From Pontibacter aquaedesilientis (GTDB lineage: Bacteria; Bacteroidota; Bacteroidia; Cytophagales; Hymenobacteraceae), in the NCBI RefSeq assembly GCF_014773225.1, contig NZ_JACXAJ010000001.1, positions 248,001-312,000 on the forward strand: a stretch of 64,000 bases of DNA, read 5' to 3'. A program made the translations under genes and the position numbers. The notes beneath the pieces are model-generated. The model ran no database searches and was not told where the DNA came from. It was given only the letters and a program-made list of their open reading frames with translations. Below are positions 26,990 to 36,813 of this stretch, piece by piece; position 1 is the stretch's first letter, and every line of letters begins with the position of its first letter.

Positions 26990-27186
26990 GCTGGTGCGGG
27001 CTTGTAGCTCCTACTGTTGCTTTTTCTGAAGGGATAACTGCGTGGAAAGGTATAGGCGCGAGCTGCAAGCTCGCGCCAGCGGAGAGTAAATATGCTAGTG
27101 CTAGCTTGTAGCTCGTACTGTTACTTTAGCTGATAATACAGCTGCGTAGAAAATGAAAAGGCACGAGCTACAAGCTCGCGCCAGCG
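26990..27186. repeat. REP-like repeats, cluster B (two full units)
   Basis: Two tandem full units lie at 26990-27081 and 27094-27186. Each pairs a half containing GCTTGTAGCTC with an inverse half containing GAGCTRCAAGCTCGCGCCAG, separated by about 40 bp with CTGATAATACAGCTGCGT or similar. They fill most of the 396-bp gap between mscS and a small lipoprotein gene; the 26805-26989 remainder holds only the mscS promoter region. Confidence 0.85.
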
Positions 27187-27990: not shown

Positions 27991-28559
27991 TTAAGCAATA
28001 GCAATTTCCAGCAAACCCTTTCCGCCACTAAAATCTATCGCGCTGCTATACTTCCAATGCTCCGGCTCCGATACAAAGCCAGCTTCTACAGGGTTGTTAT
28101 GGACGTAGTCGATTTTCTGATTTATCACGGCAGCGCTCCAAAGCACGATAGGCTTGTTGTGCTGCTGCCAAAACTGCCGGTGCTTTACGTTGCTGTTCTT
28201 CAGGCCAGCCCGTTCCATCAGCCATAGCATCCATTCCTTCCGGCTCTCCTGATTGTGTTCGGCAATACTCAGTCCCCCTTTGAAGGGGGTAGGGGGATGT
28301 TTTGCTTTGAAGTATAAGTCTTCAGCTCCTTCAGCAGCGCGCTCGGGTTTTTATCGCTGGCCCGGAAGATGAGTTGCACGTGGCTGGGCATAATACACCA
28401 GGCATATATCTCCATCCCTTTGTTTTTGCGGCAATAGTCCAGGCTGTCTGTAAGTATGGCAAAGTACTCTTCATGCGTGAATACGTCTATCCAGTACACC
28501 ACGGCAAAACTCACAAAGTATAGCCCTTCCTTGTTATGGAATTTATATTTCCTGCTCAT
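27991..28559 (-). pseudogene. REP-associated tyrosine transposase (RAYT), broken
   Basis: The start at 28559 opens a Y1-transposase frame (MSRKYKFHNKEGLYFVSFAV) with AWCIMPSHVQLIFRAS and the putative catalytic Tyr82 in LKTYTSK. The frame ends at a palindromic insert and resumes in another frame as AEHNQESRKEWMLWLMERAG, then FWQQHNKPIVL and DYVHNNPVEAGFVSEPEHWKYSSA, all standard RAYT C-terminal motifs. The HUH motif also reads H60-V-Q62 instead of the usual HxH. Two lesions suggest a dead gene. It lies amid REP-like repeats, which a functional relative could have spread. The two halves appear as separate frames at 28269-28559 and 27991-28230. Confidence 0.85.
28271..28304. repeat. Palindromic insertion inside the RAYT gene
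   Basis: The 16-bp palindrome CCCCCTTTGAAGGGGG (28274-28289) is followed by TAGGGGGATG, so read in reverse it is CATCCCCCTA then the hairpin. The insertion puts the RAYT halves out of frame. The layout (C-run, two or three bases, then a C-rich hairpin) is the same as in the inverted repeats around the DUF559 gene at 36.2-36.7 kb, although the sequences differ. Confidence 0.7.
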
Positions 28560-33663: not shown

Positions 33664-36117
33664 TTGCCCTTCAACCCATTTAACATAGACCTTCCCGTTA
33701 GGGAAATCATACCTGCCGTTAGGGAGCACCTTTCGGCACAGAACACGCTGATCGTGAACGCCCCTCCCGGAGCTGGTAAAAGCACCTTGCTGCCGCTGGC
33801 TATCATGGACGAGGCCTGGCTTTCGGGCCAGAAGATCATCATGCTGGAGCCACGGCGCCTGGCAGCCAAAACCATTGCCGAGCGCCTGGCGCAACTGCTG
33901 GGCGAGGAGGTAGGCCAGACCGTGGGGTACCGCATCCGTTTCGAGACGCGCATTTCGGAGCAAACCCGCATCGAGGTTGTAACCGAAGGCATCCTTACCC
34001 GCATGATCCACAGCGACAGGGCACTTACGGGCGTGGGCATTGTGATTTTTGATGAGTTTCATGAGCGCAGCATCCATGCAGATGTAGCCATGGCCCTGAG
34101 CCGGGAGGCGCAGCACGCACTTCGCCCGGACCTGCGCATTATGGTGATGTCGGCCACGTTGGATATGCCCCAGCTTACCAAACTGCTGCAGGCACCGGTG
34201 GCGCAAAGTATGGGCAGGCAATACCCCGTCGAGACCATTTACACCGGCGATGCCGACGACAGAATGCTGCCCGAAATGACGGCCCGTATTGTGCAGCAGG
34301 CAGCAAAGGAGCGGGAAGGGGATATCCTCGTGTTCCTTCCCGGCGAAAACGACATCCGGAAAGTAGAAGAACTGCTCCGCAGGCAACTGCGCGATTTTAA
34401 GATACATCCGCTGTTTGGTATGCTGCCTTTTAATAAGCAGTACGCAGCCATTATGCCCAACCGCGAAGGCAAACGCAAAGTGGTGCTGGCCACCAGCATT
34501 GCCGAGACCAGCTTAACCATAGAAGGCATTACGGTGGTAGTGGATACAGGCTTTGGCAAAACCTCCCGCTTCGATCCGAAGTCCGGTTTGTCTCGGCTCG
34601 AAACCGTGCGCATCTCCAAAGACGCAGCCGACCAGCGTGCAGGTCGTGCAGGGCGTTTAGGCCCAGGTACGGCTTACCGCATGTGGAGCAAAACCACGCA
34701 CGAGCGCATGGCCCCCCACCGCACCCCCGAAATTCTGGAAGCAGACCTGTCGTCGTTGGTGCTGGATATGGCGCAATGGGGCATTATGGATATCCGTGGC
34801 CTTACCTGGCTGAATCCTCCTCCGAGAGCGGCCCTGCAGTCTGCCACCGAAATGCTGCACCAACTGCAGGCACTGGAGCATGGCCGTATTACCGAGCATG
34901 GAAAAAAAATGCACGCCCTACCATGTCACCCGCGTATTGCCCACATGTTGCTCAAAGCCGAGGAAACCGATCAGGTGGCCCTGGCCTCCGATATTGCCGC
35001 TATCCTGGAAGAGCGCGACCCCCTGGACCGCAACGCCGGCATCGACATTAATCTAAGAATAGAAGCCCTTCGCAGGTATAGAAAAGAGCAGGGGCAGGGC
35101 AAGCGTTTCGGGAAGATAGAGAAGGTAGCCCGCTCGTACCGCAGCATGTTTAGCATAGAGGCCGATAACAGTACTTTTGATGAGTATGAAACTGGTGTGC
35201 TGCTAACGCATTGCTACCCCGAGCGCATTGCCTATGCACGCCCCGGAAACAACGCGCAGTTCCAGTTGGCAAACGGCAAGTATGCCTCTGCAGGCCACCG
35301 CGATGATTTGGCTTACGAGCCCTGGCTGGCCATCGCGCACCTGCATGCCGGAGGAGAGGATAATCCGGGCCGTATTTTTATGGCATCACCGCTTAACCCC
35401 AAAGACCTGGCCCCGCTCGTAAAACAGCAGGTAAGCTACCATTGGGATGTGAACGACGGAGAGCTTACCGCCTCCATGGACACTCGGATTGGAAGCATTG
35501 TGCTGCAAAGCAAACCGCTACCAGCCCCCGACGAGAAGCACCGCGTGCCGGCTATGATCGAAGCCATCAAGCACGAAGGCGAGCACCTCCTGGACTTCAA
35601 CCACGACCTAAGCCAATGGCAAAACCGCGTGCTGAGTCTGCGTAAGTGGCGCCCTTCCGAGTTCTGGCCCGATGTTAGCACCTCCACGCTGCTCATGACC
35701 AATGCCGATTGGCTAACCCCACACCTCTACGACATAGAGCACCCCGACGACCTGATGAAGCTGGACCTCCAACCGATTCTGGAAGCCAAATACCTGAATG
35801 AAGAGCAACGCACCAGGCTGGACGTACTGGCCCCGGCTTTTCTGACCTTGCCTGATGGCTCAAGTATAGAACTGGAGTATAAACCCGATGGCGCACAGCC
35901 AAAGCTGGAAATTCGCCTGCAAGATGTGCTAAGCTGGGAGCAAAGCCCAACCGTAGACGAAGGCGAAATGACCGTAGAGCTGGCTTTATTAACCCCAGAG
36001 CTAAAGCCTATCACAACTGTATCAGACCTGGCTAGCTTCTGGAAGGGGAATTATAGGGTTATCAAAAGGCAACTGGAAGTGGTGTTTCCGGAAGTGGAGT
36101 GGGAGAGGGGCCTTTAA
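33664..36117 (+). CDS. hrpB: ATP-dependent helicase HrpB
   Basis: I start at TTG 33664, because a stop and no ATG precede it in frame; the truncated copy at 31518 uses the same TTG. The 817 residues carry Walker A APPGAGKSTLLPLA, the DEFH box (IVIFDEFHERSIHAD), SATLD, FLPGENDIRK, the arginine-finger region DQRAGRAGRLGPG, and the HrpB-specific C-terminal domain. It is a DEAH-type helicase of full family length; its cellular role in bacteria is poorly defined. Only one AGGTATA copy lies inside it. The 5' ~250 bp duplicates 31518-31766. Confidence 0.92.
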   Translation: MPFNPFNIDLPVREIIPAVREHLSAQNTLIVNAPPGAGKSTLLPLAIMDEAWLSGQKIIMLEPRRLAAKTIAERLAQLLGEEVGQTVGYRIRFETRISEQTRIEVVTEGILTRMIHSDRALTGVGIVIFDEFHERSIHADVAMALSREAQHALRPDLRIMVMSATLDMPQLTKLLQAPVAQSMGRQYPVETIYTGDADDRMLPEMTARIVQQAAKEREGDILVFLPGENDIRKVEELLRRQLRDFKIHPLFGMLPFNKQYAAIMPNREGKRKVVLATSIAETSLTIEGITVVVDTGFGKTSRFDPKSGLSRLETVRISKDAADQRAGRAGRLGPGTAYRMWSKTTHERMAPHRTPEILEADLSSLVLDMAQWGIMDIRGLTWLNPPPRAALQSATEMLHQLQALEHGRITEHGKKMHALPCHPRIAHMLLKAEETDQVALASDIAAILEERDPLDRNAGIDINLRIEALRRYRKEQGQGKRFGKIEKVARSYRSMFSIEADNSTFDEYETGVLLTHCYPERIAYARPGNNAQFQLANGKYASAGHRDDLAYEPWLAIAHLHAGGEDNPGRIFMASPLNPKDLAPLVKQQVSYHWDVNDGELTASMDTRIGSIVLQSKPLPAPDEKHRVPAMIEAIKHEGEHLLDFNHDLSQWQNRVLSLRKWRPSEFWPDVSTSTLLMTNADWLTPHLYDIEHPDDLMKLDLQPILEAKYLNEEQRTRLDVLAPAFLTLPDGSSIELEYKPDGAQPKLEIRLQDVLSWEQSPTVDEGEMTVELALLTPELKPITTVSDLASFWKGNYRVIKRQLEVVFPEVEWERGL

Positions 36118-36135
36118 GTTAGAAAGTTAGAAAGT

Positions 36136-36180
36136 CAGACCTCACAGCGTCTTTTATGCCTGTGAGTGTCTGGCTTTTGG
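36136..36180 (+). terminator. Probable terminator after hrpB
   Basis: CAGACCTCACAG pairs, with two interior mismatches, with CTGTGAGTGTCTG around a loop of about 12 bases. GCTTTTGGTG follows; the T run is short. It lies 18 bp after the hrpB stop. Confidence 0.5.
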
Positions 36181-36201
36181 TGTTTAGTTAGGCAGTGCCG
36201 G

Positions 36202-36249
36202 GTCCAACCACCCCCAGCCCCTCCTTGTCCAAGGAGGGGAGTTTTTCTT
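36202..36249 (+). repeat. Left inverted repeat of the DUF559 unit
   Basis: It begins GTCCAACCACCCC, followed by a perfect 9-bp hairpin CCCCTCCTT / AAGGAGGGG around GTCC (36218-36239), then AGTTTTTC. Read inward this is a hairpin followed by five T, terminator-like. Apart from four or so mismatches it equals the reverse complement of 36644-36691. Its last bases overlap the stop codon of the DUF559 gene. Confidence 0.85.
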
Positions 36250-36604
36250 ACTTACTAAAGTTATCGCTGATCTCATGCAAAACGGCTTCTAATTGTTGGA
36301 ATACCTCTTTGTTCTCGAAACGAATGACTTTAATGCCTAGGCTATATAGCGCTTGTTCGCGTTCCTGGTCTGCTAATTCTGCCGCTGCATGGTTATGAAC
36401 TTGTCCGTCTAATTCTACAGCTAACCTTTCAGAAGGGCAGTAAAAATCAAGGATAAAGTTTCCGATACTGTGCTGCCTCCTGAACTTGCGGCCCATAAGT
36501 TGAGCACCTTTCAAATATTTCCAAAGTTCGCTTTCAGCACTAGTAGAATTGTTGCGTAACCCCCTTCTAAAATCCTTTAGGTATTGCCTGTTGTGCAGCT
36601 TCAT
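36248..36604 (-). CDS. DUF559-family endonuclease-like protein
   Basis: The 118-residue protein is a compact DUF559 domain: AESELWKYLKGAQLMGRKFR, then RQHSIGNFILDFYCPSERLA, then VELDGQVHNHAAAELADQE and GIKVIRFENKEVF. Asp53 and Glu64/Asp66 are the acidic positions of the restriction-endonuclease-like (Vsr-related) core. It would cut or nick nucleic acid; no substrate is known for this family. It has no adjacent methylase or restriction gene. The promoter must lie in the ~40 bp between its start and the right repeat. Confidence 0.85.
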   Translation of the reverse strand: MKLHNRQYLKDFRRGLRNNSTSAESELWKYLKGAQLMGRKFRRQHSIGNFILDFYCPSERLAVELDGQVHNHAAAELADQEREQALYSLGIKVIRFENKEVFQQLEAVLHEISDNFSK

Positions 36605-36643
36605 TGTTCAATAGATTTTGCTATTTATAGACAACGGCTCCGA

Positions 36644-36691
36644 AACAAAAATTCCCCTCCTTAGACAAGGAGGGGCTAGGGGTGGTTGGAC
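36644..36691 (-). repeat. Right inverted repeat of the DUF559 unit
   Basis: It reads inward (minus strand) GTCCAACCACCCC, then the hairpin CCCCTCCTT / AAGGAGGGG around GTCT (36654-36675), then AATTTTTG. It differs from the left copy at a few positions (T for C in the GTCC loop, T for C before AGCCCC, A for G before TTTTT). Its terminator-like end also points inward, so both ends would stop outside transcription before the gene. Confidence 0.85.
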
Positions 36692-36813
36692 TTGGTACAG
36701 CAACACACCCTGACTCAGACAAAATGAATAAGAAGTGTTAACAAAATCCCGCCTTCTGGAGAAAAAGAAATACTTAGCATTAATAGAATGCTAAGTATTT
36801 AAAACTGAGGATT

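Follow-up and report, generated by a model that had tools for sequence, protein, structure and literature searches.

DUF559 nuclease genes between cognate hairpin repeats: a candidate class of small selfish DNA elements in Pontibacter and other bacteria

A DUF559 nuclease gene enclosed by inverted hairpin repeats in a 64-kb stretch of the Pontibacter aquaedesilientis genome (here called the window) is one instance of a recurring unit. In the sequences compared, nuclease and hairpin appear as cognate pairs, gene-less copies of the repeats are dispersed, the occupancy of individual sites varies, the gene is under purifying selection and the pairing of the ends is kept while their sequence changes. 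We interpret the unit, with a probability of about 0.5, as a small selfish element consisting of a homing-endonuclease/Vsr (EDxHD)-type nuclease gene between two cognate hairpin repeats and spread by repair copying. The wider proposition falls a little short of even odds: that DUF559 genes and their cognate C-rich hairpins form an unrecognized class of selfish DNA in several phyla, which employs a structure-recognizing nuclease of the homing-endonuclease type and dispenses with transposase, recombinase, intron and intein, and from which a large part of the C-rich intergenic hairpin repeats in bacterial genomes derives. No link between DUF559 and such repeats was found in the literature searched, which was largely open access, and an earlier description is possible.

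The window unit and its nuclease

The features of the window unit are as follows.

36192..36701, no strand: whole unit, including the inverted arms 36192-36249 and 36644-36701
36206..36214, + strand: left tag AACCACCCC, on the outer side of the core hairpin, where it is conserved in type A
36218..36239, + strand: left core hairpin, 9-bp stem and 4-nt loop; T run at 36242-36246 on the inward side
36248..36604, - strand: DUF559 nuclease gene, 118 amino acids, clade A (PF04480, E 6.2e-32; tree; fold)
36654..36675, - strand: right core hairpin, inverted copy; the + strand A run at 36646-36651 is its inward T run
36679..36687, - strand: right tag, AACCACCCC on the - strand; similarity to genome G035 stops here

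An initial sequence-only reading had described inverted repeats with hairpins around one DUF559 gene, and the arms, the perfect 9-bp stems and the PF04480 match were all recovered. The repeat length of 48 bp given there describes the better-matched part; the full arms are 58 nt each, 86% complementary and separated by 394 nt. Read inward, each arm has a T run after its perfect 9-bp hairpin, as that reading had also stated, and the loops of both hairpins are 4 nt long. No other polypyrimidine hairpin in the window has a stem of at least 8 (loops of 2 to 8 scanned), and the unit ends, folded alone as DNA, form the 9-bp hairpin with z values of -2.2 and -3.5. The inverted-repeat score of the unit is 76, and a score of 40 was reached by just 1 of 253 control windows, so the inverted repeats are not due to chance. 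Judging from the sequence, transcripts entering the unit from either side could possibly stop at a hairpin and its T run; for the transcript of the gene itself, the left hairpin offers no T run.

Besides PF04480, the window protein matched nuclease-type models only (MTES_1575 and DUF2726). Profile searches of the protein found no HUH/tyrosine Y1 domain, and the unit contains no DDE transposase, DUF559 being its sole gene. The AlphaFold2 model (pLDDT 90.4) matched an uncharacterized relative best in Foldseek (3hrl, E 1.1e-8) and next the catalytic domain of I-Bth0305I (3r3p, E 3.6e-5, TM 0.72-0.74 by target), while Vsr (1vsr, E 0.04) ranked below several weaker matches that followed I-Bth0305I. 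The protein is thus predicted to have a homing-endonuclease/Vsr-type fold and to be a hydrolytic nuclease. DUF559 had been described as a family without known substrate, and this now needs softening: the predicted similarity to I-Bth0305I, and more weakly to Vsr, provides leads, with cutting itself something that we infer.

Residues W28, R43, Q44, E64, D66, H70, D79 and R82 are among those invariant in 48 DUF559 sequences, and E24 and D53 are conserved in at least 90% of the same set; by their spacing, we take the conserved residues to represent the EDxHD catalytic motif. The gene is under strong purifying selection (median dN/dS, 0.081; 17 usable of 19 computed pairs). Assignment as a defence gene was rejected, since every PADLOC match was weak (a methyl-directed restriction enzyme ranked best, at E 1.9e-5), as was assignment as a phage gene (three matching phage records, best identity 39%).

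Cognate pairing, gene-less copies and repeat fold

DUF559 units are common in Pontibacter. PF04480 had 145 matches, in 46 of 50 genomes, and flanks were analyzed for 129 of these loci, the other 16 being partial or weak matches. Inverted-repeat scores of at least 40 were found at 115 of the 129 loci, compared with the 1 in 253 control windows, which were shifted by 800 bases, and in other genera at 26 of 33 loci, compared with 1 of 66 control windows; the remaining 14 Pontibacter loci and 7 loci in other genera scored under 40.

Every DUF559 clade has its own hairpin sequence. When 12 hairpin labels were placed on a DUF559 tree of 147 loci with a score of at least 35 (end types were assigned from sequence patterns drawn by eye, leaving 19 rows unlabelled), they required 13 changes, against a minimum of 11 and a mean of 81 after shuffling. 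Among Pontibacter labels, 107 of 110 matched the protein clade, one was mixed (B/C) and two were discordant: at L147 type A repeats seemingly enclose a type E unit, and L170 lies at a contig edge. The position of the tag, outside or inside the core hairpin, varies between units, at times within one clade. The window genome (G000) has two DUF559 genes, both between type A repeats.

Copies of the repeats without a gene are widely dispersed. The strict type A pattern occurs at 13 places in the window genome, where one inverted type A pair (C11:480934/481085) has ∼117 bases between its members, too few for a gene, and where the type B family has eight copies (strict pattern) and no cognate gene. 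Across the 50 Pontibacter genomes, type A copies were found in 45 (up to 135 per genome) and type E copies in 35 (up to 65 per genome), and reversed-pattern controls for both types gave 0 in every genome, which rejects a chance origin. Inverted doublets too short for a gene are frequent among the copies listed. End identity was tested for 17 of the listed type A doublets or units, drawn from five genomes; the two ends were identical in 8 of the 17, against 1.9 expected from within-genome shuffling, which suggests that both ends travel together.

Copy number was associated with the cognate gene. With kinship ignored, the median number of type A copies was 23 in the 27 genomes with the cognate gene and 9 in the 23 without (P = 0.001), and that of type E copies was 11.5 in 26 genomes with and 0.5 in 24 without (P = 0.0002); dependence on the gene of the other type was weaker (P = 0.25 and 0.07, kinship again ignored). 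For each type, the copy numbers of the four genomes lacking DUF559 were 0, 0, 4 and 0. As many as 64 type A or 65 type E copies nevertheless exist in some genomes that lack the cognate gene, which indicates that many copies are relics or were moved by something else. In the window itself, a gene for a RAYT (REP-associated tyrosine transposase; 27991-28559) is split by a solo type D hairpin near 28271-28298 into two open reading frames matching model positions 3-86 and 96-146, in a genome without a type D DUF559 gene; RAYT-type repeats lie at 27162, 27805 and 28694.

In genera other than Pontibacter, a second hairpin, of arbitrary sequence, often stands after the tag AACCACCCC and before the core, while Pontibacter repeats have only a short linker, mostly of 2-3 nt, between tag and core. 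Flush stems of at least 4 bp were present in 21 of 41 distinct spacers of 8-50 nt, compared with 1.6 on average and at most 6 in 500 shuffles, and the 21 pairing spacers comprised 17 distinct stems. Pairing of the second hairpin is therefore kept while its sequence changes, and a folded single strand is probably what is recognized. As a side lead, the tag approximates a mirror image of a stem arm, and an intramolecular triple-stranded fold could be the recognized object: 5.85 positions matched, against 4.96 ± 0.20 in 5,000 permutations, across 13 families that are few and related, with one mismatch in type A and only loose agreement of single positions within type E. The direct-repeat alternative gave P = 0.67. 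Identity with a known RNA family was rejected (0 of 7 loci above the gathering score). One Azospirillum DUF559 flank (L383, 1118-1288) came near the Caulobacter sRNA family CC2171 (RF01867; 69.7 of 75 bits), and from its sequence this family may itself be such a repeat.

Site occupancy and distribution

The window unit lies between hrpB at its left and a gene for a small AMPK1_CBM protein at its right. Downstream of hrpB, type A units are found in, e.g., G000, G044, G046, G029 and G049, and type E units in G010, G015, G040 and G048; other Pontibacter genomes have gene-less pairs, remnants or no recognized copy in the stretch viewed. The DUF559 gene of G035 at this site has a 1-base deletion. 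Similarity of G035 to the window is 94.2% over 3,005 bases and ends at the right tag. Window positions 33701-36689, comprising hrpB and the unit, share this 94.2% identity, compared with ∼73-87% for other G035 stretches, and the sequences make a segment exchange bounded by the unit possible. By look, differences between the two units (window 36192-36701 and L111) seem to concentrate in tag, linker and loop and to be sparser in the gene. Of nine probes for insertion polymorphism between G000 and G035, four had a partner, at identities (∼73-87%) too low for clean junctions.

Comparison of empty and filled sites, which the sequence-only reading had proposed, revealed that one site may hold a unit, a single hairpin or nothing, as at fahA, or a unit or nothing, as at leuS. 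The 3′ end of fahA (named by TIGR01266) carries a type A unit in G000, type D units in G047, G015 and G016, type F units in G040, G048, G011 and G028, a single hairpin in G010, G005 and G009, and none in G003, G049 and G029; 30 loci were read, and many of the remainder have other neighbors. As far as sequence can tell, a single hairpin with matching outer flanks would be the expected remnant of a deletion between the two palindromic cores, an origin also stated for REP doublets (PMC6006769).

Several units lie in frame inside conserved genes. DUF559 occupies one position of leuS in G079, G094, G099 and G078 and another in G084. In G079 and G094, members of one genus, the identity is 91% for the upstream LeuRS part and 52% for the inserts; in the LeuRS alignment, 11 of 15 sequences have no insert at the shared position. 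In metH, DUF559 follows the B12-binding_2 domain in G094, with the frame staying open, and in G051, with a stop 30 codons past DUF559. It is also found inside a UvrD-type helicase (G058 and G052) and, in G058, C-terminally in a protein, presumably PurL, that has a CobB/CobQ-like glutamine amidotransferase (GATase_5) domain. Hairpin sequence is translated next to several of these inserts. No intein domain was found in the eight host proteins scanned, and no target duplication was seen by eye at the junctions of near-identical units. Repeated occupation of one site may reflect tolerance there instead of targeting.

DUF559 units are neither unique to the window spot nor limited to Bacteroidota. 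Among the best 80 loci of a scan of named genomes, 18 were from Pontibacter, all with a score of at least 40, and 62 were not, including Flavobacteria, Pedobacter, relatives of Chitinophaga, Bacteroidales and metagenome-assembled genomes labelled Chlorobiota and Calditrichaeota. Scores of at least 40 were found at 18 of these 62 loci, compared with 4 of 156 controls over all 80, and polypyrimidine hairpins were present on both sides at 35 of the 62, compared with 1 of 118 control windows. A plasmid collection contained 42 records with DUF559, of which nine from outside Bacteroidota were examined together with one Escherichia coli locus. Six scored 52 to 208 (Pseudanabaena, Azospirillum, two Deinococcus, Sphingomonas and Sinorhizobium), three had scores of 16 to 29 and no clear inverted pair (Picosynechococcus, Synechocystis and Photobacterium), and control windows scored 15 to 37, with one of 63. 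The Sphingomonas unit lies between sufB and sufC. The E. coli locus (L395) scored 20 and had no clear inverted pair; directly downstream, to the right of 1806, it has two degenerate, relic-like C-rich hairpins in tandem. On a Trichlorobacter lovleyi plasmid (L396, 1501-1600), an inverted hairpin pair without DUF559 between its members lies in an annotated cobyrinate a,c-diamide synthase gene, and one of these hairpins is 90% identical over 50 bases to the left end of the window unit. Co-occurrence of repeats and DUF559 in further genomes, the check set by the sequence-only reading, thus extends through Pontibacter and other Bacteroidota to Pseudanabaena, Deinococcus and alphaproteobacteria.

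Proposed mechanism, alternatives and known systems

We propose that the repeat, with its C-rich tag beside the core hairpin, would fold when single stranded or as a cruciform and that the DUF559 nuclease would recognize this fold and cut there or at a matching target. Host repair would then copy the unit, or a gene-less version of it, into the cut site. Hairpins that occur singly, like doublets without a gene, would be non-autonomous relatives served in trans, and deletion of the middle of a unit would leave a single hairpin. The units would accordingly be mobile, as the comparison of sequences suggests. The idea of a self-propagating or repeat-maintaining unit had been put forward from the window alone, and the co-occurrence of DUF559 with the repeats and the filled and empty sites strengthen it; movement and cutting are still inferred, and no insertion was seen to happen in the genomes compared. 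Against reading the unit as an element, a hydrolytic nuclease alone cannot rejoin DNA.

The finding that the same positions are held by divergent units leads us to rank homing-like, repair-driven copying first and free single-strand transposition second. In such transposition, as in IS200/IS605 and REP/RAYT, DUF559 would nick a hairpin-ended strand (e.g., of the lagging-strand template), the strand would be inserted elsewhere and host enzymes would seal it. The REPtron-like anatomy of cognate hairpins, inverted doublets and solo copies (PMC6006769) fits this route, and the kept end pairing points to a folded strand. It is nonetheless doubtful, as the protein has no HUH/tyrosine domain and a fold that predicts hydrolysis, and the divergent units that share one leuS position are better explained by a fixed target than by free insertion. 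It is more improbable that DUF559 is a resident repair or maintenance enzyme, a Vsr-like protein that processes hairpins or mismatches and for which the repeats are regulatory or maintenance targets rather than mobile ends. The predicted similarity to the Vsr fold, a Vsr-like Caulobacter DUF559 protein (PMC12907096) and the strong purifying selection would suit such a role. A resident enzyme would not be expected to show variable and changing site occupancy, several unrelated types per genome, copies decayed by stops, or units inside leuS, metH and a helicase gene.

Movement of the repeats in trans by RAYT or another transposase, with DUF559 as a passenger between two copies, would be consistent with the presence of RAYT genes (Y1_Tnp matches) in 43 of the 50 Pontibacter genomes, that of the window included. 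We consider it very unlikely. Of 30 RAYT loci taken, 29 were long enough for comparison; by the same strict patterns, none of the 29 had same-type inverted DUF559-type flanks, compared with 79 of 129 DUF559 loci, and 17 of the 29 had another inverted repeat, with a score of at least 40, which indicates two separate repeat-enzyme systems side by side. A clade-specific hairpin is not expected of a passenger, and G015, G040, G011 and G028 have no Y1_Tnp match yet carry 11 to 25 type A copies. That the hairpins are plain transcription terminators that insulate the gene, with no mobility, has scarcely any credibility left, despite the stable hairpin fold and the T run that lies inward of each hairpin in the window unit: the hairpin sequence is clade specific, gene-less copies are dispersed, and the tag is conserved outside the hairpin. 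Insulation cannot be the whole point, because hairpin-bounded units are also found in frame inside leuS, metH and the UvrD-type helicase gene.

Bacterial genomes are dotted with hairpin repeats, many families of which have no known enzyme. If DUF559 were the enzyme of the C-rich families, repeats of unknown function and a widespread DUF would explain each other. Homing-like spread of hairpin-bounded DUF559 genes would also mean that REP-type elements can be run in a second, independent manner, a hydrolytic nuclease taking the role of the tyrosine transposase, and that selfish DNA can enter essential genes in frame even though it lacks a splicing domain. With several cognate pairs per genome, ready material exists for testing how folded DNA strands are read by a small nuclease.

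With EDxHD homing endonucleases such as I-Bth0305I, to which one DUF559 gene is assigned in PMC9403480, the unit shares the predicted fold of the catalytic domain and the occupation of the same positions in conserved genes by divergent copies (leuS). Unlike them, it is bounded by hairpin repeats, has many gene-less copies and has no intein in the eight hosts scanned, and the window protein, at 118 amino acids, has little beyond the catalytic domain. It may nonetheless be a homing endonuclease of the free-standing type, encoded next to its target. Caulobacter VsrA has a DUF559 domain, and its proposed catalytic residues, E73, D102, D115 and H119, have the spacing of E24, D53, D66 and H70 of the window protein; it acts as a Vsr-like genome-damaging or repair nuclease (PMC12907096). 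Vsr enzymes nick DNA at T:G mismatches and are encoded beside a cytosine methyltransferase. The window unit differs from Vsr in its cognate hairpin flanks and in having no methyltransferase among the four neighboring proteins scanned. Compared with DDE insertion sequences and MITEs, the unit lacks a DDE transposase; its ends are inverted, and the junctions compared by eye showed no clean target duplication.

RIME and other rhizobial palindromes have C-rich arms that resemble the tag, second hairpin and core of DUF559 repeats, and the Sinorhizobium DUF559 locus has C-rich inverted hairpins. RIME-type palindromes are called repeats of unknown function in PMC2573895. CGTC REPs, said in PMC3733652 to lack a transposase, were not equated with DUF559 repeats, given that their stems begin with AT.

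The closest anatomical parallel is with REPtrons (RAYT/TnpA-REP; PMC6006769 and PMC3733652). Both have one small nuclease gene between inverted cognate hairpin repeats, dispersed doublets and solo copies, and coevolution of enzyme and repeat. The REPtron enzyme cleaves and religates its repeat in single-stranded form, and the likeness of the DUF559 unit to REPtrons is one of anatomy, known from sequence. The DUF559 unit has neither an HUH motif nor a catalytic tyrosine, its protein has another fold, and AACCACCCC or a C-rich variant stands in place of the GTAG foot. We read the unit as REPtron-like in anatomy, with a nuclease of the homing-endonuclease type replacing the HUH transposase.
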